Source: Rugalucina vietnamica (taxonomy: Eukaryota; Mollusca; Bivalvia; Lucinida; Lucinidae). From it: 64,000 nucleotides of DNA. The stretch is from NCBI GenBank assembly GCA_964017185.1, contig OZ024870.1:61854812-61918811 (forward strand). The letters are read 5' to 3'. Positions 3,691-63,079 of this stretch are shown here, piece by piece. The position numbers were made by a program, and so were the translations under genes. The notes under the pieces are model-generated. The model was not told the origin of the DNA. It was given only the letters and a program-made list of their open reading frames with translations, and made no database searches. Position 1 is the stretch's first letter, and every line of letters begins with the position of its first letter.

Positions 3691-3756
3691 AGTTCCTTTG
3701 TTGTTAAAAACGCATCATCTTCACTTGACAAGGTTTACTATTAATACATCAGGAAA

Positions 3757-4025: not shown

Positions 4026-4117
4026 AGATCTGTGTTATTACATGTACTGGAGATGATCACTGTAGAAATGTTGGCAATTTTCTTTACAGTTTTGTCTTTC
4101 ACCATGTGTAAATGGGG

Positions 4118-35749: not shown

Positions 35750-38700
35750 GGTCACTGTTGATGGTAACATTGCAAAATGGAGGAAGAAACGGAACAGCAA
35801 CAGTCTTGCAACTATTACAGACTGGTTACGCTGCTTATTGACATCGGTGGGGAGGTGCTGAGAGACGAATTGTTGAAAGAAATTCCATTGAACACATTTG
35901 GAAATGTCCTACAAAACAATATTAATTTATTGACAAGATTAAGGAATATGAAAGTTCTGACAGAACCTCAGTTTGCTCTTTTGCTGGAATCACCACCTGA
36001 TCCAAACAAGTTTGATGTATCTTTGTTGGTGGCCTTGTTGAGGAATTTGTGCCCACATATAAAGCCAGTACCAGACTGGACTATTGGTGTTCCTGGTCCT
36101 ACTGATCATAGTATAGGAGCTGAACTTCTTAGAATTAAAAACATTAGAAACACAAAGATGCACATTCCAACAACAGTAATGCCAAAGTCAACATTCCAGC
36201 CTCTTTGGACTGAACTTGCTGCCATAATTCACAGTATTGCATTTCAAGTTAGTCAAGAATGTTGCTTTAAGATCTCCAAAAAGATTTTGATCTTAGAAAA
36301 TGCCAACGTAGATCCATCGGGTGAAAAAGAACAGCGACTGCTGAAAACTTTGAAGGACTGGCAAGAACAGATAATTGACATCTTGAATGAGAAGGTCAAC
36401 TCAATTCAGAAGTCCTTGGAAAGCCTCCATCTTAAGGTAAATACAGTAGTATAAAATATTAATCCAAGTATAAATGTACTTCATTTGCGCTTGCTAAGAT
36501 GATTCTCACGGAGAATTTCATGGTGAAAAAAAGCAAGCCAAGTTTCTTCTTGAAATGTCGTGGAGATATACAGGTTTTTTAAGGTTAAAAAATGAACTGT
36601 AAATGCTAAATACACTAAAATTTCCAGGATAAATATCAAATTTCTTGGAGAAAGTCTTCAAGAAAACATACATTTGATCATAGGGAAGTCATATTTTTAT
36701 CGCACCTGCTTATAGCAGGGTGCGATATAGGAGTCCAAATTTCCGTCCGTGCGTTCGTCTGTTTGTCCGTCCGTCAACATTTATGTCGAAGTTTGTTTTT
36801 CTTTACATCAGTGAGAGCTAGGAGTGTGAAACCTTGCATAGTAATTGTCCTTGACATACCCTTCAAGCACGCACCTTGACCCGGTACTCTTGACCTATAT
36901 TTTACGGTCCATTGATTTTGTTAATTTTTACGTCAAAGTTTGGTTTTCTCTGCATCAGTGATAGCTGCGAGTGTGAAACCTTGCATACTAATTGTCCTTG
37001 ACATACCCTTCAAGCACGCACCTTGACCCGCTGACCTTGACCTATATTTCACGGTCCATTGACTTTGTTAATTTTTATGTCAAAGTTTGATTTTCTCTAC
37101 ATCAGTGATAGCTGCGAGTGTGAAACCTTGCATAGTAATTGTCCTTGACATACCCTTTAAGCATGCACCTTGACCTGCTGACCTTGACCTACATTTCATG
37201 GTCCATTGACTTTGTTAATTTTTATGTCGAAGTTTGGTTTTCTCTGCACCTGTGATAGCTGCGAGTGTGAAACCTTGCATAGTAAATGTCCTAGACATAC
37301 CCTTTCAAAATACACATTGACCTGGTGCCCTCAACCTATATTTCCCGTTTTTAGTTATTTTGCCAGATGCAGGTGCGATATCGACCTCCGCGGAGTTCTT
37401 GTCACTGTATACATGTTTATGTATTATTGTTTCAGAGTGTCAGAGGACTAGATGTAGTTGATGCTTTAAGAGAAGCTGGTGATGCCAACAGTGCTAGGCT
37501 GGAGTCAATAAAAGACTCTATGTCTCAGATTGCCAGGGATGTGTCCATCATTAGCCAGGATGTCTCGAGCATATCCAACCAGGCTCAGGTAGCAATACAA
37601 ATGAAGAATCTGATAATTTTTTGTGCAGAGTAAATATGTCTTGTTCATGTATACAGCACAACATCACAGCAGGGTTTGAACCCAAGACTGCTCGATACAG
37701 AGTCCAACGCTCTATGTTAAGGGTGAATATGAAATACCCCAAGTTTGGTAGACTGGTTGTTAGGATACATTTCACCAGAGACTTGCTTATTTGGTTTGTG
37801 GAAAAAATCCTTGATTTCCCAAAGAAAGCAACATGACAGTTACTTGTTAAAAGGATGGACACTCAGATTGCATGGATTTTTAGCTCACCTGAGCCGGCTT
37901 ACAGCTTATATGATAGGCAGGTACCCGGCGTCCATCTGACATCGTCCACCATTTTCAAAAATCTTCTCTCAAACCGCTTTGCAAATCAAAGACAAATTTT
38001 AGAAGAAGCATCTATAGGAAGGGGAAACCAATGTGTACATAAATATTCCAAGTCACATGACCAAGATGGCCACCATGCCCATATATTGTAAAAATTCTTC
38101 AAACATCTTCTAAGGAACCAGTTAATTTATTTTAATGAAACTTAATATGTAGCATCGCAGATTCAAGTACTACAATGTATATATAAATTATGACCCTGTG
38201 ATGACCTTGACCTGTTTTACGGCAAAGTCAACATAGGTCGCCCATGCATTTGAATGGTGAAAGTTGTTAAAATGTCATTTGAAGGGAAAAACTTGAAGGA
38301 ATGGGCCAGTGGACTGAAAAAATGTGGATCCCAGGGATGTTTGGCCTCCACCCTGGGGGAATATACATGTATATTAACATAACATTCAAAGATCTTCTTC
38401 TCTGCAGCTGCGCAGCCAATAAAAGTCAAATTTTGTATGAAGAATCTCTTGGAAGGAGGAACCAATGTGTACATTAATAATCTGGCTCACATTACCAAGA
38501 TGGCCGCCATGCCCATATGTGGTAAAAATCCTTCAAAAATCTTCTCCTCTGGAACGGGTAGATCGATTTTGACAAAACTTGGCATGTAGCATTGGGGAAT
38601 AGAGTTTTACAATGTATACAGAAATTATGACCCTGTGATGACCTTGACCTATTTTATGGCAAGGGTAACTTTGGTCGCATATGCAGAAAACTGCTAAAAT

Positions 38701-41700
38701 ATCATTGAAGGGGAAAACTAAGGTGCAGGAAATGGGTAAATGGACAGAATATTTATGATTTAAAAACAATCAACCCCAGGGGTTCATCTGCCCCTGCCCT
38801 GGGGCTATATACATACATGTATATGACCATAATAGTCAAGCTTGTTTATTGGTATATATCCCAGATCTCAGGTGAGAGTTTACAGGACCATTGGTCCTCT
38901 GAAATATATTTTATGTATTATGGAGATCCTTATGAAATATGATGGAGATATCACATGTATGCCAATAGTAGATTATTAGCTCACCTGATCCGAAGGCTCA
39001 CAAGGTGAGCTTATAGTTTACCAATCCGTCTGACGTCCGTCCGTCGTCCACAATTTCAAAGATCTTCTCTGAAACAGCTTGGCCAATCAAGGTCAAATTT
39101 TATGTGGAGCATCCATGGTAGGGGAAACGAAAGTTTGATCGTGAAATACAGGTCACATGACCAAGATGGCCGCCACGCAGATATATGGTAAAAACCACTA
39201 AAAAATCTTCTCCAGAACTGGCAGGCCGATTTTCACGAAACTTGGTATGTAGCATTTGGGACTCCAGCCCATCGTAGTTTGATCAAATGATGACCCTTGG
39301 ATGACCTTGACCTATTTTAAGGCAAGGTCAATTTTGGAAACATAGGCTTTTACATGGGAAAAAGTGAAAACTATGGATTTTTTGAAAAATATTGCAGCCT
39401 GAGGCCTCAAAAGTGGTAGATGCAAACAACTAATGGAGTGATTAATTTAGGTCAAGGTCATCTTTTGACCTTGGCCGGTCTGTCATCCATACACACTTTT
39501 CAAAGACCTTCTCTGAAACCACTTGGCCAATCAAAGTGAAATTTTATGTGGAGCATCCATGGGTAGGGGGAACAAAAGTTTTATTGCGAAATCCGGGTCA
39601 CATGACTAAGATGGCCGCCACACTCATATATGGTAAAAACCACTCAAAAATCTTCTTCTTCAGAACCGGCAGGTCGATTTTCACAAAACTTGGTATGTAG
39701 CATTTGGGACTCCAACCCATCGCAGTTCAATCAAATGATGACCCTAGGATGGCCTTGACCTATTTTACGGCAAGGTCAGTTTTGGAAACACAGGCTTTTA
39801 CATGGGAAAAAGTGAAAACTATAGATTTTTAGCTCACCTGAGCCGAAGGCTCATAGGTGAGCTTATAGTATACCCATGCTCCGGCGACCGTCCGTCGTCG
39901 TACATCGTCCGTCCGTCCATCGTCCACCATTTTCAAAGATCTTCTTCTCTGAAACCGCTTGGCCAATCAAAGCCAAATTTTATATGAAGCGTCTATAGGA
40001 AGGGGGAACCAATGTGTATATAAGAAATCCAGGTCACATGACCAAGATGGCTGCCAGTCCCATATATGGTAAAAACCCTTCAAAAATTTTCATCTCCAGA
40101 ACCGGTGGACCGATTTCAACGAAACTTCGCATGAAGCATTGATGGCTCAAGCACTTCAATGTGTATATAAATCATGACCCTGTGATGACCTATTTTACGG
40201 CAAGGTCAACATAGGTTGCCAATGCATGTGAATGGGGAAAACTTTTAAAATGTCATTTAAAGTGAAAGTATTGCAAGAAATGGGCATTAGGACTGAATAT
40301 TAATGATTCTGAAAAAATTGGACCCCAGGGGCTCATTTGCCCCCACCCTGGGGCATAATACATGTATATTACCATAATATTCAAACATCTTCTCCTCTGA
40401 AACCACTTGGCCAATGAAAGCCAAATTTTATATGAAGCATCTATAGAAAGGGGGAACCAGTGTATATATAAAAAATCCAGGTCACATGACCAAGATGGCC
40501 GCCATGTCCATATATGGTAAAAACCCTTTAAAAATCTTCTTCTCCAGAACCGGTGGAACGATTTCAATGAAACTTGGCATGAAGCATTGATGGCTCAAGC
40601 ACTTCAATGTGTATATAAATCATGACCCTGTGATGACCTTGACCTATTTTACGGCAAGGTCAACATAGGTCGCCAATGCATGTGAATGGGGAAAACTTTT
40701 AAAATGTCATTAAAGTGAAAGTCTTGCAAGAAATGGGCATTAGGACTGAATATTAATGATTCTGAAAAAATTGGACCCCAGGGGCTCATCTGCCCCCACC
40801 CTGGGGCTTAATGCATGTATATTACTATAATATTCAAACATCTTCTCCTCTGAAACCGCTTGGCCAATCAAAGCCAAATTTTATATGAAAAGGTACAAGT
40901 AGGCAAAGACCAGGAAAAGGCGCAATCAGAAAAAGATTCCCACTCCAAAAACCGAGGTGGGAAAAAACCAAACTAACAATCAGGTACTTATACCATGAAA
41001 CATATCGTAAGCCGAACGAGCAGCTATTTTCCCAATAGGTGGCCACTCAGTTACCTTAACTTAACTAAAAATATGAAAACATACATAAGGCGCCAACAGC
41101 ACAAAAAATTTTAAACACCAAGACATAAAACAAAAAGAACCACTACAGAAGTATCGACTTGGAACGATCAGTAACACAAAGTTACTGGCGGGCTTAAACC
41201 GGTTTTACAGGTACCTAACCTCACCCTCAGCTTCTGCAGTGGTTCACAACATTTAGTTAGTTCTTCGGTCCTCGTGGTGAATCTCTAACTAGTCAATGAA
41301 TCATCAAGAACAAACAAATAAATCATGATAAACATCCTGATGAATCAAAAACCAGGACTCACAGATTGAGTAAGCTGCCCGACGATGGAGATCCCTGGGC
41401 GCCGAATAACCTACTAACTCCGGAGCAAAAGAAAAACACCAGTTGGACCCCGGTGGGCCAAGCAACAGACAAGAAGCTCCGGCCCCAACCAACTAAAATG
41501 AATAGCTTTAAGTCGGGGCCATCATAGAGTCTGACGCCCGACCCACCGGCGTGCAATTAAAGAAGGCAGCATAGTTATCAACCATGATTGGGTTAAAAAC
41601 TAAGCATGCAGACTGTCGCATAACATTCAAGTTATAACCTATACGTCTGTAACGTGATATGATTTTTCCGAACTGAAGAGAAAAATCAGTTATTCCTTTA

Positions 41701-44700: not shown

Positions 44701-47700
44701 TGGTCAAATATATTTTTTGCATGGCCTGTAGAGTCTGTAGCCCCATGTTAAGAGACGCCCTAGAAATAAAATGTGTGTTGCAGTCAAGGTTTCCTTCATC
44801 TTTTCATATGCAACCACACATGTTACATTGTATTAAATTAACTGCAGCATGGAACAATGACTTATCTAGGCTGCATATGAGCAGCATATTTAAGCAGCCC
44901 AAAACACTGGTTTGAAGCTCCTTTTCTGAACTATTCCCATTACCCACTATGGTGAAATTTGAAAAACGCGAGAGCCAAAAGAATTATTTCTGGAATATAA
45001 ACCTGATAGGTCATAAGTTATTATAAACCAAGAAAAATGAAAATACAAAGAGGTTACTTTTTTGCCTCAAGTGCAACACAAAAGGCAACCCGGATTGTGT
45101 CTCGGCCGTTAAGGAAAAAACCTCTGCGTTTAATTGATATATCATTAAGGTCCAACAATTTTTCTAATCTTTAGTTTCAGGGAGGCGGAGACAGCATTCC
45201 TGCTGAAAGGTCAGATATTGCTGAGCTTAAAGACCATTTACTTTACCTACGTCAGGAACTGGCATCCATGAAACGTCAGATTCATCACCTGACTGAGGGA
45301 AACCATCCCATAACCTATACAGGTAATTTTAGGACTTATTGTATTAAGAGGTCCTCATGGAAGATTGGGGTAATTTTAGGACTTATTGTATTAAGAGGTC
45401 CTCATGGAAGATTGGTGAAAAAGAAATAGTCACCCCTCTGAAAAGTCGCACATGGAATATGCAATGAGCATTTCTGGTATTCTTTCATTTACAGACTTCC
45501 CAGGGAGGTACATGACTTAAAATGTTATTAGCTCACCTGAGCCGAAGGCTCATAGGTGAGCTTATAGTATACCCATGCTCCGGCGTCCGTCCGTCGTCCG
45601 TCCGTCCGTCCGTCCGTCCGTCGTCCGTCCGTCGTCCGTCCGTCCGTCGTCCGTCCGTCGTCCACAATTTCAAAGATCTTCTTCTCTGAAACCGCTGGGC
45701 CGATTGTTCTCATATTACACATACACCATCTATAGGTAGGGGGAAAGAATAATTGTGTTTTTTGTTTTGATCGGAAAAGGACTCTGGTTGCTATGGCAAC
45801 TTATGCTTCCCATAGACTTATAATGGAAAAAAGTGAAAATTGACAGTTTTTGCTGTCTTGTTGGAGATATTTGAATTTTGTTTTTGCAGAAATGTTTATT
45901 GAGTAGTCCTCTACGTTTCATGTGACTTTTGTCCTAATCCTTCATTTTGATTGGTTGCAGGGGCCCCATATAGGGCAAAATTTCGAAAAACGTTCAAAAA
46001 TCTTCTTCTCAGAAACTGTCAAGGAGATGAAACCTGTACTTTGTATACATGTTCCTGACAGTGGCCTCTACATAATTTGTGTTTTTTATTCCAGGCGGAT
46101 AAGAACTCTTGTTGCTATGGCAACTTAAAGTTTCAATAGGCTTATAATGGGAAAAGTGGAAATCGGCTATTTTTCAGCTAAAATTGTAGACATTTGAATT
46201 TTGTTTTTGCAGAAATGTTTATTGAGTAGTGTTTGACGTTTCTTGCGAGTTTTGTCCTAATCCTTTATTTTGATTGGTTGCTGGGGCCCCATAAAGGACC
46301 AAATTTTGAAAAAAACATTCAAAAATCTTCTCCTCAGAAACTGTCAAGTGGATGAATCCTGTACTTTGTATACATGTTCCTGGCAGTAGCCTCTACATAA
46401 TTTGTATTGTTTATTCCAGTCGGATAAGAACTCTGGTTGCTATGGTAACTTTAAGTTTCCATAGACTTATAATGGGAAAAGTGGAAATTAGCTATTTTTT
46501 GAAAACTATTGCAGCCTGAGATCTGAAAAGTGGTAGATGCAAACAACTAATGGATTAGATGAAGGTATATGATTAATTTAGGTCAAGGTCATCTCTTGAC
46601 CTTGGCCGGTCGGTCGTCCATACACACTTTTCAAAGATTTTTTTCTCTGAAACCACTTGGCCAATCAAAGCCAAATTTTATATGAAGCATCTATAGGAAG
46701 AAGGAACCAATGTGTATATAAATAATCCAGGTCACATGACCAAGATGGCCGCCATGCCCATATATGGTAAAAACCCTTAAAATATCTTCTTCTCCAGAAC
46801 CGGTGAACTGATTTCAACGAAACTTTGCATGAAGTATGGATGACTCAAGTACTACAATGTATATATAAATCATGAATAAATCATGACCCTGTGGTGACCT
46901 TGACCTATTTTATGGCAAGGTCAACATAGGTTATCAATGCTTTTAAATGGGGAAAACTTATTTTAAGTGAAAGTCTTGCAGGAAATGGGCAGTAGGACTG
47001 AATTTTAATGATTCTGAAAAAAAAATGGACCCCAGGGGCTCATCTGCTTTTAAAATGTTATTTGACAGGAAATTTGCAAATGGACAGAATATTGATTATT
47101 CTGAAAAGAGAAAATGGCCCATAGGCTTCATCTGCCCCTGCACTGGGGTTAAATACCATAATATTCAAATATGTTTATTGGTATATGAAGCAGATCTCAG
47201 GTGAGCGTTTACAGGACCATTGGTCCTCTGGTTTATCACATTCCCAAGGCTCTTTGATACCAAATGTACAAATTTGCAAGTCCCTAGAGCCAAAGTACAC
47301 TTATTAAGGTATTAATGAATCCAATCCAGAAATTGGTATCTCAAAATTCACAATCTGGCATACCGGTAATATTGATGATAATGTCAACTTTTATGCATTT
47401 ATTCAAAAGTATTGGTTAAAGCAGCATACAGCATTGGTCAGCTTACCCCATGACTCGAAATTACACAGTTTGCAGAATTACGGAATAACATTATTATCGG
47501 TATGTTAGTTCTCTAAAATGGTTGGAAATTCACATAACTGATAAACATTAAAAAGACAAATAAAAAGTAGACTTTAATAAAATGGCCCAACAAAGCAGGC
47601 AAATTCATGGGAAAATTGTGAAAAGGCGGTTCATTCATCATTGTAAAGCATCATTTTTTGTGATATAAGGTATGTTTTTGGATTTATCTTATTGGCTAGG

Positions 47701-50700
47701 TTATGTATGCCATGTTGTAATCAAGTTTTTTATGAATCAGGCCTTTAAAGGAATTTTTCGGGAAACATTGTTGATTTTAGTATGTTTTTTTTCTCCCCAA
47801 ATTGAGCTTGATGCCAAATTTTAGACAGAACTCTGCCTTAGACCTCTTTGAAGAGTTGAAAAGCTAATTAAATAACCAGAGGACCAATGGTCCTGTAAAG
47901 GCTCACCTGAGACCTGAGATATACAATGTATACCAATAAACTTGACTAGAATGGTTATATATTTGTAGGGACAGGGCCAGAGCAACCTCTGGACTCAATT
48001 TCTTCTTTAAATCATAAAGACTAAGTCCATTTGCCAATTTACCTCAAGTTTTGCCCTTCAAATGACATTGTAACAATTTTCCTCATTCAAATGCATGGGC
48101 AACCTAAGTTGACCTTGCTGTAAAAAAGGTCAAGGTCATCCAAGGGTCATGATTTATATAAACTTTGTAGAGCTCCATTGCCTGATGCTTCATTCCAAGT
48201 TTCAAAATCATTGGCCTTCTGGTTCTGGAGAAGAAGATTTTTAAAGGTTTTTGCTATTTATAGCCATGGCGGCCATCTTGGTCATGTGACCTCTACCATT
48301 AATACAAACTTTTATTGCCCCTTCCTAACAATGCTTCACATAAAGTTTGGCTTTGATTTGCCATGTGGTTTTAGAGAAGAAGATGTTTGAATATTATGGT
48401 CATATACATGTATAAAGCCCCGGGGCAAGGGCAGACAACCCCCTGGGGGCAAAAGTTTTTCATTAACATAAATATTCTGTCCATTTGCCCATTTCCTGCA
48501 AGTTTTGCACTTTAAATCATATTTTAGCAATTTTCCCCATTCAAATGCATGGGCGACCTATGTTGACCTTGCCGCAAAATAGGTCAAGGTCATCCCAGGG
48601 TCATGATTTATATAAACTTTGTAGACCTCCTTTGCCTGATGCTTCATGCCAAGATTCAAAATCATAGGCCTTCTGGTACTGGAGAAGAAGATTTTTTAAA
48701 GGTTTTTGCTATTTATAGCCATGGCGGCCATCTTGGTCATGTGACCTTAACCATTTATATAAACTTTCTTTCCCCCTTCCCGAGGATGCTCCATATGAAG
48801 TTTGGCTTTGATTGACCAAGCGGTTTCAGGGGAGAAGATGTTTCATTATTATGGAAATATACATGTATATAGCCCAGGGGCAGGGGCAGACAACCCCCCA
48901 GGGGCTAAAATTTTCCATTAACATTAATCTTCTGTCCATTTGCTTATTCCCAGTAAGTTTTACCCATTAAATAGCATTGTACCATTTTTTCCCATTCAAA
49001 TGCATTGGTGACCTAATTTGACCTTGCCGTAAAATAGGTCAAGGTCATCCTAGGGTCATGATTTATATAAACTATGATGGGCCCGCGTCCTCCATGCTAC
49101 ATACCAAGTTTCGTGGAAATCGGCCCACTGGTTCTGGAGAAGAAGATTTTTAAAGGTTTTTGCTATTTATAGCCATGGCGGCCATCTTGGTCATGTGACC
49201 TGGACCATTTATATAAACTTTCGTTCCCCCTTCCTAAGGATGCTCCACATGAAGTTTGGCTTTGATTGGCCAAGCGGTTTCAGAGGAGAAGATCTTTGAA
49301 ATTGTGAACGACGGACGGACGGACGGACGGACGACGGACGGACGCCGGACGGACGCCGGAGCATGGGTATACTATAAGCTCACCTGTGAGCCTTCGGCTC
49401 AGGTGAGCTAAAAATGGTTTGGTGATCACCATTTTTGACCCCCCCCCCCCCCCCCCCCCTTAAATTTGACCCCCGTAGTGATAGAGCGTCGGACTTTGAA
49501 TCCAGAGGTCCTGGGTTCCATCCCCACATGTGTCACCGTGTTGTGTCCTTGAGCAAGACACATTAACTCCCTACAGTACTGGTTAAACCCAGGAAGAGTT
49601 GGCTCCGTCCTGACATGACTGAAAAATTGTAGACTGGGAAGTTAAGCCTCAATACAAACAATAAAAAATTCTTAAAGTTTGACTAAATAATTAATCATTT
49701 CTTGACAGGGCAGCAAAATATACAAAGTTCTTCTATCCAGACTGGTGAAAATGTTGGTGACTTGTCGGACAGAGACATAGATTTTATAGCTGGCAAACTT
49801 GGCTTTGACTGGGAGAGAATTGCTATATTCTTAGACTATGAGTCTCATCAGATTGATGATTTGAAATTCATATACAGAGATCAGGTAATTTTCATTACAA
49901 AAACATGCCCATGCAATATACAGAGATTTTTAAAGTTGTAAGAAATGAAAGTTTTCAGTAGTTAATTTTGATATTTTTCTTATTTTTGCTCAAAACATAG
50001 ATTGTGGATACACGTTAGAACTGCCTCGCATAGGCGTTTCTAACAAGTACCCACAATCTATGTTTTGGTGCAAAAATAAGAAAAAATAGGTATACACATG
50101 CAAACCCCAATTTTTCTATGTAAAAGTGGGGTTCAGTAGGGTATGCTTTTCATGGACATGTTTTCTGTAGTATGCTGTAAGGCCTAGTTTCCACGGACAA
50201 GTTTTCTCTGACAAAGCAGGTTTGTCACAGAAAAATATGCATGTGTAAATTAAATTCCGTGGCGAAGTTTCACTGTTAAATATATGTGTCAAAGGTGAGC
50301 GAGCTAAGTAATAGAAGAAATCTTTGCTGTGTGTGAACACAAACTCATTGCCAAAGTTTCTGTGACAAATAATCTTCATCAAAGAAGAATGCCACGGAGG
50401 TCGATATCGCACCTGCATCAGGCAAAATAATGAAAAATGTGAAATATAGGTCAAGGACCTCAGGTCAATGTGTGCGCTTAAAGGGTATGTCAAGGACAAT
50501 TACTATGCAAGGCTACCTTAGATGTAGAGAAAATCAAACTTCGACGTAAAATTTAAAAAGACCATGGACCATGAAATGTAGGTCTAGGGCACTGGGTCAA
50601 GGTGTGTGCTTGAAGGGTACATCAAGGACAATTACTATGCAAGATTTCACACTCCCAGCTATCACTGATGTAGAGATAACGAAACTTTGAGGTAAAATTA

Positions 50701-52897: not shown

Positions 52898-52938
<41 letters not shown>

Positions 52939-54154
52939 TCAGAAACAAAATGTCGGTACTCGCTAAAACCGCCTCGTTGAGGCGGCTCTAACGTGTGTAT
53001 ACAATCAATGTTTTGAGCAAAAACAAGAAAAATATCATTTTTTAATCTGAAATTTTTCAATGTTTGAAACTGAGCAAAAATCTGTATTTTACATGGGCGT
53101 GTTTTCGTAGCCGTACTTGCAATTTTTATGTACGATGTTGCGAAAGTAAGACAAACGGTTACGAGAGGCGTAAAGTAGCTTATAAAACTTTACAAAACGT
53201 AGCATTTCAATTCTCAATCTTGTATATTCCAGTATTTCAGCTTAAGTTGAAAAAAGAGTCTTCAAATAAGGAAACTTTCGGTTTCATATCAGAACATCTG
53301 AACAAAGTAATAACCGTTGACATGGTTTTCAACCGGTTTCGTTCAGAAAGGTAATAAATGATGAGACAATTTTATAAAGATTTTTTTTCAAAGATAGGGG
53401 GACTATATTATTCGACGATGTAAATGCATATGACAATTGAAGCTGGGCCTGGGGTCGAAAAGGTCCTCAAGAAAAATGGTCATAAATCAGATGGGGGTCC
53501 ATTGGTAAAGTAATATAAATTTTGCATCTTCTTTAATCTTTTCAGTTAACCTAAAGGTACTCAGACACATTTTCTTATAAAAATGTTTCTGCACTTTTTT
53601 CACACAACGGGTATTAACGCTTTGCATTATATGTAGCGATAGCTGATAAATTCTAGCATCAGTAAAGCATGTCCGTGAAATGTATACCCCCTCAAACCCC
53701 ACTTTTATATAGCAAAACTGGGGTATGCGGGGGTATACCTATTTTTCTTATTTTTGCTCAAAACCGTGATAGATTGTGGATACTTGTTAGAACCGCCTCG
53801 TGGAGGCGGTTCTAACGTGTACCCACAATCTATGTTTTGAGCAAAAATAAGAAAAATGGCAACATTTTTCAGCTGAAAATTTTCATTTTTTAAGCTCGAA
53901 AAATGTCTGTTTATTGCATGGGCAAGTTTTCGTAATGGTTAGCGATTGCATACTAGAGATAAACAGTATAAACCGTGAAGACGATTTGTAAAATCACAAT
54001 CCTAACTATCAGCCATGCCAAATTAAAATGTTAAATCCAAAGAGTACGGGTACGCTACCCATTTCCGTGAAATACCATTTTACGTACATGACGGCATCAG
54101 CTTTACCTGACGTTATGTTTGATCTATAGAAGAATCGAACGTAAGCTGCCATTT

Positions 54155-54191
<37 letters not shown>

Positions 54192-57100: not shown

Positions 57101-60100
57101 CATGAGGGCTAGACCCAAGGGTCCATGCATGGGGGTGGGGGTTGGACCCGAGGTCAAGATCTAGGACATTTTTTTTTTTTTTTTAAGAATGACATTTTAC
57201 TTTCATTTCACTTTTTTTAAGAATGACATTCTACTTTCATTTCAATCTAGGACTGAGGACCTGACCCACAATGTGCCCAATTATGTCAGCTCTGTATACA
57301 GCTCTAAAATAGATGTGTCATCATGTTTGTACGAAAGTGCTTTATACTGCTTGATTAGGGCACTGTCTTTCATTGGGGATTTGAGGCTCAATGTCAGGGG
57401 TGAGCATGTGCTGGGTGTTTGGATAGGGGGTAGGGAGGGGGGCTTGGTGGCTACCAGCCGGGGGGTATATATGCCTCTCAAGGGTGCCTCTCAAGACACT
57501 TTTTCTAGTTAGTGCAGTTCTTTTCACTTTTTAGATGGTGCACTCACATTGCATACTTATGAAGTCTACTTTCTGAATTCAAAATTTCAAGCCATAGTAT
57601 ATGGTTGTACAGTCCATTTTATGTCAGACCTGTTCATAAATCAAGAACACAGACTTTCTCATGACATTGCACATTAAAAACAACAACCAAAATAATAATA
57701 ATAAATGTGAGACAAGCCAAGTTCTGCTTGCGGGTGTGCCTGGTGGTTTTTCTCGGGGCTCTCCCGTTTTCGCCCACCTACTGATTGGCCCGTCTTATAT
57801 GAGCTGAAATAATCTTGAAAGGGACGTAAAACAATTAAAAAGAAAAAAAAAATAATAATAATGAAAAAAAGCATGAGCAAAAATGCTAATTAATTTTCAG
57901 CCTGTGACCCGCAACTCAAGAATGATCAAGCGTTGGGCTGATGTGGTTGTGAGTTGTGGTGAGAGCCCTAGAACTCTCCTGGCAGCAGCTTTTGCCAGTA
58001 TACAGAACAATGAGATGGCCCAGTCACTAGTCACAGCTGAACAAGTACAAGGTGAAAGAAATGATTCATTTAATAAAATTAAAAACAAAGTGATCATGAG
58101 AATAAATGAATGAGATTGGTACTCTTTGTATTTTTTATTTTTAAGATCTCACTGAACAATTTATAAAAGTGTTTTACTGTTTAAAATATTTCAACTTTAA
58201 ACAGAATCCCAAAAGATCTGCTGTTGAAAATGATTGAATAATAATCATCTCCAGTTTAAGACAGTAACACATTTAGATAGGCTAATCTTCCATGAGGTCC
58301 ACTTGACAAACTAATGCAAAAATGGATTAGCTTCAAAGGAAAATTCATTTTACCTTAACAGTGATCCAGGATCAAGAGGCAAGCCAGGAGACAAAGGCCA
58401 AGATTAAACAAATAAAGTTTGATGTAAAGGCAAGCAGTAAGTATATTTTTATTTATTATTTAATAGTAGGTTCTATGTCATTACAATATGAAGATTTCTA
58501 GTGTCGTTTCTTTAATAATAAGGAAGGAAATATTGGAATAAACATAGGAAATAAGTAAAGAAATGGGCTTGGATGAAAATTTGAGTGCTTTATGATAGTA
58601 ACAGCCAAAGGTTTTCATATTTAAGATTTGAGCCGCCACATGGGAAAACCAACAATCTGTCTAGGCGAAAACAAAGGTGCAGATCAGCTTCGCAGTAACT
58701 GCGAAGCTGATCAGCGTCTTTGGTTTCGCTACTCGGATAGTACAGTTCCTCTTCTACTTAAATCCAAAATTTCAAGATTCTAGCTCTTTTCTGTAATTGT
58801 ACAGGTCGGTTTGTGTCGGACCTGGTCGGAAACCACAGTGTTGGTTTTCCCACGAGGCGGCTCATTTGTTGCAGCCGCTGTTGAATTCATATTACATTAC
58901 AGGAATAGGACCAGAAACTTCTAAATGTTCTGCATATGATAGACTTGTGTACCTGAATATTAGGTTTGCAATAAGGTTTTTGAAAATCAACAAACTTATA
59001 GGAATGTCATAATGGTTTAAAATGTCCTAAATGAGGCTTTGAGACAATCATGAAACAATAGCTAATGCAGCTTTCACACTTATCACGATTCCATCGCATC
59101 AGATCGTATGATGTTGTAACAAATATCAACAAATCGTATCTTATCTTATTCCTAAATCGTGGTGATCGGGATGGACCAAAACACCGCGATCTGTTGAGAT
59201 GAGTTGTGATCTCCTACGAATTGTTATGGTCTGTTACAATTCGAGAAAAATTGCCTGGCCCGATTAAGTTCGATGCGATGCGGATGACTCCTGATAGGAT
59301 ACAATCTGATACGAGTAAATGGGATGAGACACGACAAGCCACGCGTTTGCCACGGATGCTTACGATCTGTTACGGATTATCAGTACATTAAACAGATCGG
59401 GCAAGATAAATGACTTTTATTCTTTGATCAACAATAGACAAGTAAATATCTATTAAATATCTATACGGTCCTTTTCAGTATTAATTCGAAATATGAAGGA
59501 TGCCAGGAAATGGCAGCAGAGACCTGGGTAGAAAGGAGACGGATATGGCTTTATCATAAGCATGCAATAATAATGCAAATGCCGCATTCTTGTCATTCTC
59601 AGCTCCTCAATCATAAATGTTGTTTCGTCTTCAGAGATTAAAAACGTAATGAGGTGTATGTTTGTTTTCAAAGTATATATACCAATCGTGGTCTCATCGT
59701 GACACAATCGTGGCTACAATCACCAAAAAGTCAAGCCAACAATCGTAAATTAACGCAATACATCGTAACAGATCTTGAGACTCGTACCAGAACGCATCTA
59801 CGCGTATCAGTTCGCATCAAATCGCGGTCACGTATCGTGATAATCGTGTCAGATCGCATTAGGATCGGGGGCTTGATCGTAATAATCCTATCGGATCGCA
59901 ACTAATCGTATCCATCCGGGACCAATATTATGTCACCAGATTTTGACCGATCGCCACCCTATCGTATTGGATTGCAACAGATTGTATCAAAACGCAACGA
60001 CTCGCAACAGAACGTCAAATTTTTGCAAAATGTCCCGATTAGCTACGATTTGTCAATCGTGGCATTGTTAACAGATCGTGCTCTAGTGTGAAAGCCCCAT

Positions 60101-63079
60101 AAAGTATGCAGCTTGTTTGGAATCAGACTAGCTAAAACCTCTGTCATGCAGGTTGGAATCACACTGGGAACCACGGTAAAAACATATTTACTTTACGAAA
60201 ACATGCCCATGTTATATTTAGAGATTTTTTCAGCTAAAAAAGTATGAAAATTTCATTAGAAAAATTTTGATATTTTTAATATTTTTGCTCAAAACATTGA
60301 TTGTAGGTACACTTTAGAACCGCCTCACCGAGGCGGTTCTAATGAGTTCCCACAATCTATATTTTGGATCAGAAATAAGGAAAATAAGGCATACCCCCTT
60401 TAAACCCCAGTTTTACTGTATAAAAGTGGGGTTTAAGTGGGTATTCTTTTAATGGACATGTATTCATGATGACTAGAATCAAGTAAATCACAATTTGTCT
60501 CAGGTAGTTCATCTAGAAGAAGCCCTGTGATAGCTATAGGTGGTGAGGGTGGGATCAATGTTTTTGATGGGGAGGTTAACCTAAGTTCACTGTCTGTCTA
60601 TCCAAGTGTCGGCTCATCTGTACAAAGGTTACCAGGTAAGTCATAGTCTGTATGGAGTGTTAGGTATAAAATATGCTGTTTGTTAACAGCATATGGGACG
60701 GTCTGTGGCGTGTTCATGATAGAAAAAATGCTGTTAAGAGTACACAGGAAGTGTTGACTCTAGCCTGAAAATCTGTTTACCGAATATTAAGCCATAAGCA
60801 ACCAATCTCATTTTGTTCTAAATCAGAAAAATAAAATCATCTATCAGATTATAAATAAATAGACCATTGATAAATGTATTTGTAGCAGTCTGAACAATGA
60901 ATGCATATTAATGTCAGAGATAAATGGATGGTGTGAAAGAAAAGTAACTGTGTTTGAATTTGTTCACTAATCACTGCTAAAAGTAAACATTTTGACAACT
61001 ATCCTTTACAGACCCGTCATCTTTGCCCATTTGTAGCAGTATACAAGTTGGTGGCCCTGGCAGTCTAAATATACATGGTGGTAATGTGAAGGTAGCCCAA
61101 CACATCGGCATTGGACAGCCTTCTCTGCTTTACAGCAGGACTTCAGATGTTTGCAGAGGTGAGGGTATTCAAAGGTTATGGAAGATTAAGCTCTAATAGT
61201 TCGGGTTTAAATATTTCATTAGCCTTGACTGCATGAAGAGCTATTGTAGTCACCTTGGTACTCCACATTCCCGCTCCGTGCTCGTTCCCCTGCACATTCC
61301 CATGCGTCACACTTGTGATAAAGTTTTTTAGAAGTCGAGAAAGGGAGAACCAATGTGTACTGTAAATAATCCACATGACCAAGATTGCCGCCATGTCCAT
61401 ATATGGACAAAAGCCTTCATAAACTTTTCCGGAACTGGTGGACTAATTTCAACAAAACTTGGCATGTTGCATTGTGGACTAAAGTACTTCAATGTGTGCA
61501 TAAATTATGACCCTGTGATGACCTTGACCTATTTTATGGCAAGGTCAATAAATGTGGCCCATGACCATAATGGTCAAACAAGTTTATTGGTAAATATCCC
61601 AGATCACAGGTGAGCGTTTACAGGACCATTGGTCCTCTAGTTTTACTTATTGCCACCCATCAGCCAGGCAAAAATGTATTTTGCCAAAATGCTTGAAGGG
61701 TATGACTTCATCTTTACATCATATGTGTGGAAGTTGATGGGACACTGTAAAGTACTCCCTGATTTTTTTACTTCTTACATTATAAAAAGGTACAAGTAGG
61801 CAAAGATAAGGAAAAGGCGCAATCAGAAAAAGATTCCCACTCCAAAAACCGAGATGGAAAAAAAACTAAATGAACAATCAGGTACTTATACCATGAAAAC
61901 ATATCGTAAGCCGAATGGGCAGTTATTTTCCCAATAGGTGGCCACTCAGTTACCTAAACCTAAACTTAACTAAAATTATGAAAACACACATAAGGTGCCA
62001 ACAGCACAAAAAAAAATTAAACACCAAGACATAAAACGAAAGAACCACCACAGAAGTATCGCCTTGGAACTATCAGTAATATAAAATTACTGGCGGGCTT
62101 AAATCGATTTTACAGGTACCTCACCTCACCCTCAGCTTCTGCAGTGGTTCATAACATTTAGTTAGTTCTTCGGTCCTCGTGGTGAATCTCCTAACTAGTC
62201 TTGCCTTATAAAATTCACTTTACTACAAAAGCCACAGTGTGTAAACTTTGTTCACCTTTTTGCAATATGGAGTATAATTCGGCAAATAGGTTACTGTATG
62301 GGCGTTACCTCATGAATACGCTATTGGGTATGGTCTACTTTTGACCTAGGTAAAAGGTATACAGTTGAAAGATTAAACACATGTTTTTCGTTAGAAAATA
62401 AGAATTAAATACAAGTTTGTCTAATTCACTGGATTGGACAAATTACAGGTAGCTGATTTCTAATGGTAAATAAGTGACAACACTCTAAGCTGACCGAGTC
62501 CGACTTTTCTATAATCTCCCTACTTGAACAGATGGACTAGCCAACCCCGCCCAGATATGAATATTAAAGTTGCCGCCTATACAGTGACCTATTTGTCCAA
62601 TTATACTTTACTATATACACCGGCAGAGAAGTTAGATATTAGATATGCATGAACTGTACTGATGTGTTTAACAAAGCAACAGATCATTGATGCTATACTA
62701 TATTATGCCATAATTTGCAATTTAGCTCTCAGTCTCATTTAGGTCGTTTTGTAATACATTACTTTCTAAATGTTCTGGCAGCTACATTTTGCATGTCGTT
62801 TTACACAAACAAGCTTAGAATAGTGCATTATTTACTTTTGACCTGCAGGTGAAGGAGTTGATATGACAGATAGTATCGTCAAATCCTCTAATAGTTCTGA
62901 TATGAAGAACATGAAGAAATCCAAAGATGACACTATGTCTCACCCAGTTGTGAAACAATACAATGACATTATGGAGTCCGTTGGAGCTCTTGTTGGATAT
63001 GATCAACTCATTGGAACTGTGTTCAGGGTCGGCACAAAGTATGTCATGACGGCATGGCATTGCATACAAGAAATAATTG
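35750..63079 (+). CDS. HEPN-coiled coil-Death-RHIM-like-trypsin-like protease gene, 5' nine exons (3' end outside window)
   Basis: Nine exons join with consistent GT/AG boundaries and phases (0,0,1,0,1,1,1,1,1 at the donors), giving 622 residues plus one base before the window ends. Exon 1 carries 27 nt of 5' UTR after an acceptor, then ATG at 35777 (GCAAAATGG). Domains: HEPN of the DZIP3-like type (about 10-160; R124-N-x3-H129 motif), helical linker (221-318), Death domain (about 336-421), Gly/Ser region with two RHIM-like motifs (462-472 and 507-517), and the N-terminal lobe of a trypsin-like peptidase (from about 590; catalytic H616 in TAWHC). No signal peptide or membrane segment is seen, so a cytosolic protein is expected. 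Likely an innate immune or cell-death protein (inference). The catalytic Asp and Ser, and any further domains, lie beyond 64000. Confidence 0.8.
35777..36436 (+). CDS. Exon 1: DZIP3-like HEPN domain
   Basis: Start ATG at 35777; donor GTAAAT at 36437; 220 residues. The order CNYYRLVTLLIDIGGEVLRD, then LTEPQFALLLESPPDPNKFD VSLLVALLRNLC, then LLRIKNIRNTKMHIPTTVM and FQPLWTELAAI is that of HEPN domains found in DZIP3/hRUL138-like proteins, which are expanded in molluscs. R124, N125 and H129 form the R-N-x3-H signature of metal-independent RNase HEPN domains, so RNA cleavage is possible; many DZIP3-type members are untested. The C-terminal 60 residues are predicted helical (LLKTLKDWQEQIIDILNEKV). 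Confidence 0.8.
36699..37391 (+). mobile_element. ATCGCACCTGC element A (non-coding, tandem units)
   Basis: Opens with the hairpin ATCGCACCTGCTTATAGCAGG GTGCGAT, then TCCGTCCGTGCGTTCGTC simple repeat, then about four to five units of roughly 120 bp (GTGTGAAACCTTGCATAGTA ATTGTCCT..., CACCTTGACC, TTGACCTATATTT), ending GCAGGTGCGATATCGACCTC C. Copy B, inverted, is at 50397. Its right end lies only about 45 bp upstream of the exon 2 acceptor. Confidence 0.75.
37436..37588 (+). CDS. Exon 2: coiled-coil-prone linker
   Basis: Acceptor TTGTTTCAG ends at 37435 and donor GTAGCA starts at 37589. Length 153 nt, phase 0 in and out. Encodes residues 221-271 with the heptad-like run LREAGDANSARLESIKDSMS QIARDVSIISQDVSSISNQA Q. 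No motif beyond probable helical self-association. Confidence 0.75.
37635..37725 (-). mobile_element. Degenerate SINE head, - strand
   Basis: On the - strand, AGAGCGTTGGACTCTGTATC and TCTTGGGTTCAAACCCTGCT GTG align with the A-box side and B box of the SINE at 267. No central domain. Confidence 0.5.
37882..38902 (+). mobile_element. AGCTCACC element 4 (eroded hairpin, two units)
   Basis: AGCTCACCTGAGCCGGCTTACAGCTTATA start with a collapsed hairpin. Two units with GTCACATGACCAAGATGGCC and TGACCTTGACCTNTTTTA. End CAGGTGAGAGTTTACAGGAC CATTGGTCCTCTG. More diverged than elements 1-3. Confidence 0.75.
40890..42918 (-). mobile_element. Penelope-like retroelement, 5'-truncated, with 5-bp target duplication
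   Basis: Inserted on the - strand into AGCTCACC element 6, flanked by ATGAA (40885-40889 and 42919-42923). The coding part is 41508-42918. The 3' region (40890-41507) ends GCCTACTTGTACCTT and is shared with 18516-18735 and 61788-62205. The N-terminal part of the protein is missing and I see no GIY-YIG endonuclease, so the copy is probably incomplete. Assignment to Penelope-like elements rests on the RT motifs. Confidence 0.65.
41508..42918 (-). CDS. Penelope-like reverse transcriptase, open frame of about 470 codons
   Basis: Uninterrupted frame entering from the truncation point (the ATG at 42947 lies in flanking DNA and is not a real start) to a stop at 41508. Motifs in order, numbered from that ATG: YWLPKLHKRP (32-41), the LPKxHK signature of Penelope-like RTs; YDFSTLYTTLP (115-125) with the first catalytic Asp; VGIPMGTNCAPLVADLF (202-218); RYLDDLL (247-253) with the catalytic Asp pair; and PRRASYGVYISQLIRFAR (324-341) in the thumb region. 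Catalytic residues are intact, consistent with a young insertion. It is a retroelement gene in an intron of the large host gene, on the opposite strand. Confidence 0.75.
44286..45180. other. Gene-free intron sequence
   Basis: Sequence between element 5 and exon 3. An 86-codon ORF at 44491-44751 resembles nothing known. The segment TGTAGAGTCTGTAGCCCC occurs twice in diverged form (near 44553 and 44727). Confidence 0.45.
45181..45322 (+). CDS. Exon 3: helical linker
   Basis: Acceptor TTAGTTTCAG ends at 45180 and donor GTAATT starts at 45323. Length 142 nt; phase 0 in, phase 1 out. Encodes residues 272-318, including RSDIAELKDHLLYLRQELAS and MKRQIHHLTEG, a likely short coiled coil. Confidence 0.75.
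45323..45416 (+). repeat. 47-bp tandem duplication including the exon 3 splice donor
   Basis: GTAATTTTAGGACTTATTGTATTAAG...GGAAGATTGG occurs at 45323-45369 and again at 45370-45416 with almost no changes. A second candidate donor therefore sits 47 nt downstream of the first. Confidence 0.85.
45530..47231 (+). mobile_element. AGCTCACC element 7, mosaic of subfamilies
   Basis: Hairpin start (AGCTCACCTGAGCCGAAGGC TCATAGGTGAGC), long (GTCC)n run, two units with GTTGCTATGGCAACTTANNN and CCTCTACATAATTTGT (about 45680-46490), a bridge with GGTCAAGGTCATCTCTTGAC CTTGGCC as in element 5, then element-1-type units (from about 46640) and the end CAGGTGAGCGTTTACAGGAC CATTGGTCCTCTGG. Composition suggests recombination between subfamilies. 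Confidence 0.75.
47232..47874. other. Gene-free intron sequence
   Basis: AT-rich; no gene or recognised repeat. Confidence 0.5.
47875..49409 (-). mobile_element. AGCTCACC element 8, opposite orientation
   Basis: Begins CCAGAGGACCAATGGTCCTG TAAAGGCTCACCTGAGA and ends with (GGAC)n, GGAGCATGGGTATACTATAA and the hairpin AGCTCACCTGTGAGCCTTCG GCTCAGGTGAGCT. Three units with GCCATGGCGGCCATCTTGGT CATGTGACC and AGGTCAAGGTCATCC. Same family in reverse; internal units are a distinct, closely similar set. Confidence 0.8.
49439..49460 (+). repeat. Poly-C run
   Basis: About 20 consecutive C. It sits between element 8 and the next SINE; length likely unstable in assembly. Confidence 0.9.
49474..49664 (+). 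mobile_element. tRNA-derived SINE copy
   Basis: GTAGTGATAGAGCGTCGGAC head, B box GGGTTCCATCCCC, GTGTTGTGTCCTTGAGCAAG ACACATTAACTCC central domain, GTTAAGCCTCAATACAAACA tail. Very close to the copy at 267-472. It ends about 45 bp before exon 4. Confidence 0.8.
49709..49884 (+). CDS. Exon 4: N-terminal half of the Death domain
   Basis: Acceptor TTCTTGACAG ends at 49708 and donor GTAATT starts at 49885. Length 176 nt; phase 1 in, phase 0 out. Encodes residues 319-377. LSDRDIDFIAGKLGFDWERI AIFLDYESHQIDDLKF is the classic Death-domain helix 1-3 pattern (D..IA..LG.DW..LA..LGL...I), with Trp in the DW position. Confidence 0.8.
49897..50165. mobile_element. Hairpin MITE, 'ATGTCCGTG' family, copy ii (inverse)
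   Basis: ACATGCCCATGCAATATACA start, hairpin TTTTGCTCAAAACATAGATT GTG...CACAATCTATGTTTTGGTGC A, end ATGGACATG. It begins only about 12 bp after the exon 4 donor. Confidence 0.7.
50179..51392. mobile_element. Element with AAGGCCTAGTTTCCACGGA ends, host of ATCGCACCTGC element B
   Basis: AAGGCCTAGTTTCCACGGAC at 50179 is mirrored by GTCCATGGAAACCAGGCTTA at 51374-51393. The left interior repeats GACAAA/TTTGTC words. Most of the interior is the inserted ATCGCACCTGC element. Confidence 0.6.
50397..51372 (-). mobile_element. ATCGCACCTGC element B (inverse)
   Basis: AGGTCGATATCGCACCTGCA TC at the left equals the right end of element A inverted. Units carry AAGGACAATTACTATGCAAG and TATCACTGATGTAGAGA; the other end is AACTCCTAAATCACACCTTG C. 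Near 50700-50880 a unit-like segment is replaced by unrelated sequence (GGGGCCATGGGCAAAATTGC). Confidence 0.7.
51995..52105 (+). repeat. GCGTAAAGTG codeword tandem repeat (left arm)
   Basis: About ten 10-11-bp variants of GCGTAAAGTG/GCGCAAAGTG. The inverse counterpart CACTTTGCGCCCCTTTACGC lies at about 55680-55760 in the right arm. Confidence 0.75.
52786..52875 (+). repeat. tRNA-like sequence in left palindrome arm
   Basis: GGCCTTAGTAGTCCAATGGA TAGCGCATCAGAA resembles the 5' half of an Arg-type tRNA; GGAGGTTACAGGGTTAAC resembles a weak B box. Interrupted; not a functional tRNA. Confidence 0.35.
52889..52937 (+). repeat. Poly-T tract
   Basis: Nearly uninterrupted T for about 48 bases, with a few C; counterpart of the poly-A at 54155-54187 in the other arm. 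Confidence 0.9.
52950..53110 (+). mobile_element. Hairpin MITE, 'ATGTCCGTG' family, partial copy iii
   Basis: ACTCGCTAAAACCGCCTCGT TGAGGCGGCTCTAACG hairpin tip, ATGTTTTGAGCAAAAACAAG AAAAATATC, and ACATGGGCGTGTTTTCGTA end. The left half is missing. Confidence 0.6.
53664..53940 (+). mobile_element. Hairpin MITE, 'ATGTCCGTG' family, copy iv
   Basis: Full-length and close to copy i (3757-4025): GCATGTCCGTGAAATGTATA CCCCCT start, GTTAGAACCGCCTCGTGGAG GCGGTTCTAAC tip, GCATGGGCAAGTTTTCGTAA TG end. Confidence 0.8.
54155..54187 (+). repeat. Poly-A tract
   Basis: About 33 consecutive A bases. Confidence 0.95.
54908..54994 (-). repeat. tRNA-like sequence in right palindrome arm
   Basis: On the - strand, GGCCGTGGTGGTCTAATTGA TAGAGTATTATC looks like an A-box half and GGTTGCTGGTTCGATACCTG GC holds a B box. 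The anticodon stem does not close well. Probably SINE-derived or a tRNA pseudogene. Confidence 0.4.
56388..57175 (+). mobile_element. CCCCGGCATTTATGCCGACGGG hairpin element (non-coding, tandem units)
   Basis: Short hairpin CCCCGGCATTTATGCCGACG GG, then GTTAGTTCGTTCGTTAG simple repeat, then about four units of roughly 180 bp (GTTTCTCTGGTGGTGTATAT CTCATGAACCAAT at 56500 and 56681; GGGGNTGTGGCTAGAGGTCA AAATCTAGG in each). Units resemble those of the element at 18836-19372 (GGGGTGGGGCTNGAGGTNAA AATCTAG). Ends near a T-run. Confidence 0.65.
57510..57665. mobile_element. 'GAGCCGC' MITE fragment
   Basis: AAAATTTCAAGCC...GTACAGTCCATTTTATGTCA GACCTGTTC...TTTCTCATGAC follows the right half of copies C-E; the left half and hairpin are missing. 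Confidence 0.45.
57700..57850 (+). mobile_element. Probable SINE/retroelement 3' end
   Basis: GGTTTTTCTCGGGGCTCTCC CGTTTTC...TCTTATATGAGCTGAAATAA TCTTGAAAGGGACGTAAAAC, then an A-rich tail. I recall similar tails in mollusc SINEs. It ends about 50 bp before exon 5. Confidence 0.45.
57901..58051 (+). CDS. Exon 5: C-terminal half of the Death domain
   Basis: Acceptor TTAATTTTCAG ends at 57900; preferred donor GTGAAA starts at 58052. Length 151 nt; phase 0 in, phase 1 out. Encodes residues 378-427. RMIKRWADVVVSCGESPRTL LAAAFASIQNNEMAQSL is Death-domain helices 4-6 (ML..W......TV..L..AL......D.A). A second donor candidate (GTACAA at 58045) would break the frame with exon 6. Without splicing, the frame runs on for about 20 residues to TGA at 58111-58113. 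Confidence 0.78.
58362..58436 (+). CDS. Exon 6: short charged helical linker
   Basis: Acceptor TACCTTAACAG ends at 58361 and donor GTAAGT starts at 58437. Length 75 nt, phase 1 in and out. Encodes residues 428-452, IQDQEASQETKAKIKQIKFD, probably helical. Confidence 0.7.
58629..58865. mobile_element. Palindromic MITE, 'GAGCCGC' family, copy E
   Basis: Inverted ends GAGCCGCCACATGGGAAAACC AACA and TGTTGGTTTTCCCACGAGGC GGCTC; inner hairpin GCAGATCAGCTTCGCAGTAA CTGCGAAGCTGATCAGCG. Close to copy C. Confidence 0.85.
59071..60094. mobile_element. 1-kb element with CTTTCACACT ends and ATCG-codeword interior
   Basis: CTTTCACACT at 59071 and AGTGTGAAAG at 60085 are inverted. The interior repeats variants of ATCGCATCAGATCG, ATCGTGTCAGATCGC, ACGCAACGACTCGCAACAG in both orientations through most of its length, apart from an ordinary segment (about 59400-59700). 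No coding capacity seen. Confidence 0.65.
60188..60462. mobile_element. Hairpin MITE, 'ATGTCCGTG' family, copy v (inverse)
   Basis: ACGAAAACATGCCCATGTTA start, GCTCAAAACATTGATTGTAG GTACA...TAGAACCGCCTCACCGAGGC GGTTCTA hairpin, AATGGACATG end. It lies about 45 bp upstream of exon 7. Confidence 0.75.
60504..60635 (+). CDS. Exon 7: Gly-rich exon with first RHIM-like motif
   Basis: Acceptor TTTGTCTCAG ends at 60503 and donor GTAAGT starts at 60636. Length 132 nt, phase 1 in and out. Encodes residues 453-496. The core IAIGGEGGINVFDGEVN (462-478) aligns without gaps to the core of exon 8. The pattern hydrophobic-x-(I/V)-G then Gly-rich then N-hydrophobic resembles the RIP homotypic interaction motif (IQIG in RIPK1, VQVG in RIPK3). 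RHIM identity is an inference. Confidence 0.7.
61012..61158 (+). CDS. Exon 8: Gly-rich exon with second, canonical-looking RHIM-like motif
   Basis: Acceptor ATCCTTTACAG ends at 61011 and donor GTGAGG starts at 61159. Length 147 nt, phase 1 in and out. Encodes residues 497-545. IQVGGPGSLNIHGGNV (507-522) has the IQVG tetrad of RHIM cores, followed by IGIGQPSLL. It shares G-G-x-G-x-x-N-x-x-x-G-x-V with exon 7, suggesting exon duplication. Confidence 0.72.
61213..61640 (+). mobile_element. Chimeric hairpin element (AGCTCGACTGC-type start, AGCTCACC-type body)
   Basis: ATTAGCCTTGACTGCATGAA GAGCTATTG and GTTCCCCTGCACATTCCCAT GCGTCACACTTG match the start of the element at 18836. From about 61345 it changes to AGCTCACC-type sequence (AACCAATGTGTACTGTAAAT AATCCACATGACC) and ends CAGGTGAGCGTTTACAGGAC CATTGGTCCTCTAG. 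Confidence 0.7.
61788..62205 (-). mobile_element. Penelope-like element, 3' end only, with 8-bp target duplication
   Basis: Homologous to 40890-41325 of the RT-bearing copy. Flanked by TTATAAAA (61780-61787 and 62206-62213). A 5'-truncated insertion consistent with target-primed reverse transcription. No coding. Confidence 0.7.
62214..62848. other. Gene-free intron sequence
   Basis: AT-rich, no recognised repeat; ends in the exon 9 acceptor (TTTTGACCTGCAG). Confidence 0.5.
62849..63079 (+). CDS. Exon 9: linker and start of trypsin-like serine protease domain
   Basis: Acceptor ends at 62848 and donor GTAAGT starts at 63080. Length 231 nt, phase 1 in and out. Encodes residues 546-622. A charged Ser/Lys linker (DSIVKSSNSSDMKNMKKSKD D) is followed by VGALVGYDQLIGTVFRVGTK and YVMTAWHCI. 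The latter is the strand before the catalytic His of chymotrypsin-fold proteases (consensus GTGFxV...xLTAxHC); H616 is the presumed catalytic His. The intracellular trypsin-like peptidase family (HtrA/peptidase_2 style) fits better than secreted trypsins, as there is no IVGG activation site. Confidence 0.78.

Follow-up and report, generated by a model that had tools for sequence, protein, structure and literature searches.

Does the 64-kb stretch of DNA analysed here (the window, G000:C2:61854812-61918811; the assembly comprises 47 contigs and 1.09 Gb) encode a single protein in which a HEPN domain, a Death domain and a trypsin-like protease are joined? A first-pass annotation had proposed such a chain, with helical linkers and RHIM-like motifs between the domains. 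We found eight coding exons inside the window (35777-63079, + strand) which leave the coding frame unclosed, and a closing ninth exon was found in the DNA downstream of the window (Table 1). When the nine exons are joined, the reading frame runs for 825 codons up to a stop codon, with GT-AG boundaries at all eight introns and phases in agreement throughout, which confirms the single phase-consistent chain. This gene structure supports the HEPN-coiled coil-Death-protease order of the first-pass annotation, with exon 9 completing the protease, whereas the RHIM part did not hold. We propose, with moderate confidence, that one gene encodes an 825-aa intracellular protein of the order HEPN-coiled coil-Death-two motifs-FAM111-type protease, and that this protein would be activated by assembly.

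Table 1 Features of the gene model (positions are those of the window unless another coordinate system is given)
Feature	Position	Strand	Residues	Phase	Content
Exon 1	35777..36436	+	1-220		Start Met and DZIP3/hRUL138-type HEPN
Exon 2	37436..37588	+	221-271	0-0	Coiled coil; GT-AG
Exon 3	45181..45322	+	272-318	0 to 1	Coiled coil
Exon 4	49709..49884	+	319-377		Death domain, first part
Exon 5	57901..58051	+	378-427		Death domain, second part
Optional exon, candidate	58362..58436	+	25 aa	1-1	
Exon 6	60504..60635	+		1-1	Gly/Asn motif copy 1 (GGEGGINVFDGEVNLS)
Exon 7	61012..61158	+		1-1	Gly/Asn motif copy 2 (VGGPGSLNIHGGNVKV)
Exon 8	62849..63079	+			FAM111-like protease start: helix before barrel and catalytic His591 (TAWHC)
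Exon 9, outside window	L009:9058-9743 = G000:C2:61927769-61928454 = extended 72958-73643	+			Asp644, Ser755, stop

Splice-site and codon scores are in support of this chain. When sites were ranked with rough weights, all eight donors fell within the best 6.3% of the 2068 GT sites in the span and all eight acceptors within the best 9.5% of the 2144 AG sites; the donor of exon 2 was the weakest in the chain (1.49) and that of exon 6 the strongest. In each of the nine exons the proposed frame outscored the two other frames in codon usage, with a score trained on 1333 codons from four other stretches of the same genome; because this training set includes the FAM111-like relatives L033 and L034, its independence is incomplete for exons 8-9. 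Among stop-free intronic stretches of 40 codons (n = 2940, overlapping), the proportion scoring as high as an exon lay between 0.7% (exon 2) and 9.1% (exon 9) for the exons other than exon 7; the codon signal of exon 7 was weak, its score being matched by 34.8% of the 2940 stretches. At the 5' end, the ATG at 35777 is the sole ATG of the exon 1 frame after an in-frame stop at 35765, and an acceptor-like ttgcag lies upstream, ending at 35749. At the 3' end, exon 9 follows a tttcag acceptor in phase 1 and has the stop codon at its end. The alignment with the Ruditapes protein P0004 scores 117 when the optional exon is left out and 139 when it is included; aligned alone to the same protein, this exon was equalled by 152 of 2000 shuffles.

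The last intron contains a retroelement on the minus strand (L009:2640-7025) with repeated ends, Ngaro/DIRS-like by eye, whose frames are gag-like, reverse transcriptase, tyrosine-recombinase-like and SGNH-hydrolase-like. A reverse-transcriptase frame, Penelope-like by eye, was observed on the minus strand of intron 2 (window 41508-42968). A stretch of ~630 bases also appears to occur twice, 1884 bases apart (L009:2-629 and 1886-2513), to judge by identical frames in the list of open reading frames.

Exon 1 encodes a HEPN domain that scored 70.8 bits against the Pfam family PF18738 (cut-off 27; E 1.3e-19 to 1.3e-18). The R-x4-6-H active-site motif is present as R124-N-T-K-M-H129. The score above cut-off and the residue check together bear out the HEPN domain with R124-N-x3-H129 that had been read from the letters. 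According to passages of PMC9646362, Rx4H is the commonest form of the motif in Pinctada fucata, and 202 HEPN proteins of the DZIP3 kind were counted in the diploid of this species. Compared with PDB sequences, the HEPN exon gave no match at E<=1. Exons 2 and 3 are rich in heptads by a simple count, with the pattern in aa 228-294 and beyond; the helical linkers suggested earlier are coiled-coil-like by this count, and no homolog was seen for either exon. Elsewhere in the genome, five HEPN exons with 37-40% identity to exon 1 are found at G000:C9:48967579-49391807, a contig that is absent from the protease matches listed by the full-chain search. On the minus strand of G000:C7:56282800-56322499 (L027-L030), a frame of TIR-like appearance by eye comes after a HEPN exon. 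The TIR identity of this frame (C7:56.32 Mb) was rejected, as no Pfam family scored above cut-off and no PDB match was obtained.

Exons 4-5 resemble Death domains of the PDB sequence set, with PIDD at 8.6e-4 and RIPK1 at 0.015, and the PIDD alignment runs ungapped through the exon 4/5 junction. In Pfam, the 110-aa piece scored 14.9 bits for Death (PF00531), below the cut-off of 22.6 (E 0.03), and the full 825-aa chain gave no Death match at E<=1. The Death domain of the earlier reading is partly confirmed, by its similarity to PIDD and RIPK1, although it lies under the Pfam cut-off; in the HMM searches, HEPN and the peptidase were matched and Death weakly so. The combination of HEPN-DZIP3 with Death is established in animals. 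Passages of PMC3710099 include DEATH among the fusions of DZIP3-type HEPN, a family expanded in oyster, and an Aplysia protein described in passages of PMC9334734 combines NACHT, LRR, Death-like and HEPN domains.

While the gene structure leads us to infer that HEPN lies in the same transcript as the Death part, this common transcript is also where our largest doubt lies. In the frames of exons 3, 6, 7 and 8, no Met lies between the exon and an in-frame stop upstream, and exon 4 has none inside and none back to the upstream in-frame stop. Considering that exons 3 and 4 both lack a Met ahead and exon 4 lacks one inside, a further exon of matching phase must precede the Death part. This exon need not be exon 1, because a Met precedes exon 2 in its frame, a possible alternative start, and the HEPN exon could terminate alone at an in-frame stop (36452-36454) located 18 bases beyond its donor.

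Database relatives, the nearest named of which come from Ruditapes and Mercenaria, link the downstream part of the chain. The whole-chain protein search yielded one match, Mercenaria LOC128547239, and the search with the protease part yielded four proteins. Ruditapes LOC132729826 is 35% identical; the three others are 'lgn' proteins, two of them with identities of 39 and 40% and one with 29%, the last with a membrane-span-looking stretch ahead of the protease. Ruditapes LOC132729826 contains the second half of Death, then the two motif copies and the protease, in the same order as residues 385-824 of the model, and its start matches exon 5 over 41 residues with 54% identity. This collinear protein independently supports exons 5-9 as one gene. 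The Met with which it starts corresponds in the alignment to M385, a residue within the Death domain, as would be expected from a truncated prediction. Pfam gave no HEPN or Death match in any of the five database relatives (Mercenaria, Ruditapes and three 'lgn'); the half Death of the Ruditapes protein is visible by alignment only, and P0001, P0002, P0003 and P0005 have the protease and no Pfam match for HEPN or Death. A homolog search with residues 1-520, in which the 7992 candidates with the most words in common were scored, returned none at E<=10. As to whether the exons belong to different genes, LOC132729826 ties the second half of Death, the motifs and the protease together, but it does not tie in HEPN. 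HEPN, Death and protease in a single chain are seen at one locus only.

These observations bear on an alternative with two neighbouring genes, in which exon 1, perhaps together with exons 2-3, would encode a short HEPN protein of its own and precede a Death-motif-FAM111-like protease gene. Such an arrangement would accommodate the lack of HEPN in the Ruditapes model, the stop at 36454 near the HEPN exon, the Met ahead of the exon 2 frame and the long introns holding retroelements, as well as the 28 HEPN matches in the genome compared to protease matches listed by the full-chain search at four loci including the studied one. However, the Death part requires an in-phase upstream exon, and the Ruditapes start inside the Death domain fits a truncated prediction. 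Also in favour of a common gene, the best-scoring HEPN relative in the full-chain genome search, at C7:56.41 Mb, is followed within 14 kb downstream by a coiled-coil-like repeat frame and half a Death domain (22.8 bits, cut-off 22.6), both as predicted frames. We consider the two-gene arrangement somewhat unlikely.

Exons 8-9 encode a protease of the trypsin fold. Pfam Trypsin (PF00089) matched these exons at 24.3 bits (cut-off 20.6) and the full chain at 20.4 bits, slightly under the cut-off, and Trypsin_2 reached 25.0 bits, below its cut-off of 27.6. The triad H591/D644/S755 is complete and invariant in all eight aligned family proteins. Thus the trypsin-like protease of the first-pass annotation is upheld: its TAWHC box lies within the window, and the exon with the catalytic Asp and Ser, located beyond the window, could be added. 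The numbering of the histidine as H616 had to be corrected to H591 in the 825-aa model, to which H616 would correspond if the optional exon had been counted. By tblastn, exon 8 matched the Ruditapes protein at 2.7e-12 and the Mercenaria protein at 4.2e-12, and exon 9 the Ruditapes protein at 1.9e-34.

A PDB search with the peptidase as a single sequence missed FAM111A and remained at chance level (mostly HSP90, best E 0.11), so that family profiles were needed to reach it. A six-member family profile found FAM111A in the PDB set at 5.8e-12. With an eight-protein profile, FAM111A (8s9k) was found at 8.3e-23 (profile 3-283, chain 6-266), compared to 4.8e-5 for the best other molecule. The helix that precedes the barrel is included in the alignment, with exon 8 aligned from chain residue 6. 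Judged by sequence comparison, animal FAM111A appears to be the closest relative of the protease, and we refer to the domain as FAM111-like. The protein is not called a FAM111 ortholog, as the Pfam scan of the 825 aa gave no UBL match (Pfam may miss FAM111 UBLs) and the FAM111A-like proteins of lancelet and coral are also without UBLs in passages of PMC9798293. Structure predictions were too poor, with a mean pLDDT of 32.3 for P0004 alone and 37.3 with alignment A3. In FAM111A, as described in passages of PMC10920703, a helix at the start of the protease domain forms the dimer, dimerisation orders the oxyanion hole and is required for activity in vitro, and the N-terminal region may autoinhibit; the enzyme is of the chymotrypsin-like kind.

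FAM111A works at replication forks (passages of PMC10920703 and PMC9798293), which would suit a housekeeping protease acting on protein-DNA crosslinks or replication stress, with HEPN and Death serving just as localisation modules. However, FAM111A is directed to forks by a PIP box that originated within the mammals (passages of PMC9798293), and in related proteases of this genome the modules in front are LRR and RING/B-box. The housekeeping role is therefore quite improbable in our view.

The relatives were recovered by the full-chain genome search, whose 31 matches comprise the gene's own exons, HEPN exons elsewhere and the protease at three other loci. At C7:3.25 Mb (L034, G000:C7:3253900-3260899), LRRs and a FAM111-like protease are encoded at 3398-4915 and 6330-6962. 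An uninterrupted 506-aa frame contains the LRRs (PF13855, 6.3e-15), a hydrophobic stretch that is by eye a probable membrane span, and the protease start with its His; the Asp and Ser are in a separate frame further on. As LRRs and protease start share one frame, their linkage is independent of splicing. The locus resembles a Toll receptor with a protease in place of TIR. At C13:42.14 Mb (L033, G000:C13:42140800-42146799, minus strand), a 467-aa frame encodes a FAM111-like protease with the triad (Trypsin_2 34.2 bits, cut-off 27.6) and carries MGCCLSTC near its start, which by eye is lipid-anchor/myristoylation-like. A Gly-rich stretch of L033, SITVVNTKTIVGGDQITIGEGAKNVSVTLGDRN, resembles amyloid signalling motifs by eye. 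On the minus strand at C7:44.96 Mb (G000:C7:44960800-44964799 and 44968200-44988099; L035, L031 and L032), frames with RING (2e-8) and B-box (5.1e-11, two stretches) are followed by FAM111-like exons that have Gly at the Asp position and Leu at the Ser position, possibly a TRIM-pseudoprotease. A genome search with Trypsin_2 gave seven matches, namely L033, L034, C3:25.32 Mb and four at C2:66.1-66.2 Mb, and did not list the studied gene's own protease exons. The match at C3:25.32 Mb was rejected as a FAM111-like protease, being an ordinary trypsin by eye and not FAM111-like in tblastn.

The occurrence of these proteases behind other immune-type front ends is a hint that immune switches built on a protease may form a family. 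We tentatively suggest, as a plausible reading that could well prove wrong, that the bivalve FAM111-type protease may be an interchangeable immune effector in the slot of TIR, caspase or kinase, and that the vertebrate antiviral FAM111A may represent one surviving branch of this older set of immune proteases. The front ends would then be HEPN-Death in the studied gene, LRR plus a probable membrane span in L034, RING/B-box at C7:44.96 Mb and, in L033, a lipid-anchor-like N-terminus with a Gly-rich stretch after it, with the dead-site RING/B-box protease acting as decoy or sensor.

Between the Death domain and the protease, exons 6 and 7 hold one copy each of a motif with the by-eye consensus G-x-[GS]-[ILF]-N-[VI]-x-[GD]-G-x-V, and the two Gly-rich motifs noticed at first sight are thus present. 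In six pairwise comparisons among these two copies and the two Ruditapes copies, 0 to 2 of 1000 shuffles were equally good: none of 1000 for the exon 6 motif against each Ruditapes copy, and for the exon 7 motif 2/1000 against exon 6 and 1 and 0/1000 against the Ruditapes copies. The motif exons had no match among PDB sequences at E<=10. A genome search with both exons (three candidates scored) found these two only and no motif-sharing partner protein. The core of a RHIM reads I/V-Q-I/L/V-G-x-x-N-x-M. IQVG occurs in one of the four motif copies and the longer core in none, and none of the four matched RHIM in Pfam at E<=10, a search in which HMMER filters drop most weak matches. The RHIM reading was consequently rejected. 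A RHIM-type amyloid adaptor in a necroptosis-like pathway might draw on the single IQVG and on the presence of two Gly/Asn-rich motifs, loosely like amyloid signalling motifs; given the Pfam result, the missing longer core and a genome search in which the motif exons found only themselves, we regard it as very improbable.

That the gene is decaying or unexpressed, as long introns with retroelements could indicate, is likewise very improbable, because its 825 codons are free of stops and frameshifts, the triad and the HEPN residues are intact and the codon signal is specific to the used frame.

A single gene for the HEPN-coiled coil-Death-motif-protease chain is the reading we prefer, and it draws support from the gene structure, the domain homologies, the intact active-site residues of HEPN and protease, and the order of half Death, motifs and protease in another clam. 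Inside the cell, the HEPN part would meet an RNA or partner signal, or another Death-domain protein would recruit the chain. The coiled coil, the Death domain and perhaps both motifs would then form an oligomer that brings the protease domains together, and dimerisation would turn them on by proximity, as in FAM111A. The active protease may cleave host or invader proteins as its substrates and HEPN may cut RNA, which would suit a role in immunity or cell death.

If true, sensor-like, adaptor and protease parts would be combined in one chain, a compact form of Death-type protease activation outside caspases. To our knowledge, the upstream control of FAM111A in antiviral defence is little understood, and the gene would give FAM111A an evolutionary setting.

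The N-terminal HEPN with R-x4-H, an immune-type partner domain and many copies per genome are common to the studied protein and the DZIP3/hRUL138-type HEPN proteins of bivalves and other animals, including HEPN-NACHT and HEPN-Death (passages of PMC3710099 and PMC9646362). The studied protein differs from these by its C-terminal protease. The partners of DZIP3-HEPN tabulated in PMC3710099 are TPR, Zn-ribbon, RING, ankyrin, CARD, NACHT, DEATH and LRR, and neither these tabulated fusions nor passages of related literature give a peptidase partner. In the open-access literature, we found no paper on a Death domain plus trypsin-like peptidase architecture in oyster, which may be published, and no bivalve paper on FAM111. 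Bacterial conflict systems that join a Death-like domain to trypsin, likened here by their description in passages of PMC8195603, differ in being bacterial and having operonic partners. PIDD and RIPK1 are similar to the bivalve chain in the sequence of the Death domain; in contrast to them, the bivalve chain has no kinase or LRR match in Pfam and carries a protease in the same chain. With FAM111A and FAM111B of vertebrates and the FAM111A-like proteins of lancelet and soft coral, the bivalve protein has in common the whole protease domain, the triad and the pre-barrel helix. Two N-terminal UBLs mark FAM111 proteins, whereas the bivalve protein has no UBL match in Pfam and a front end of HEPN, coiled coil, Death and two Gly/Asn motifs. 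The architecture is a further case of immune domain shuffling in bivalves, itself a known phenomenon.
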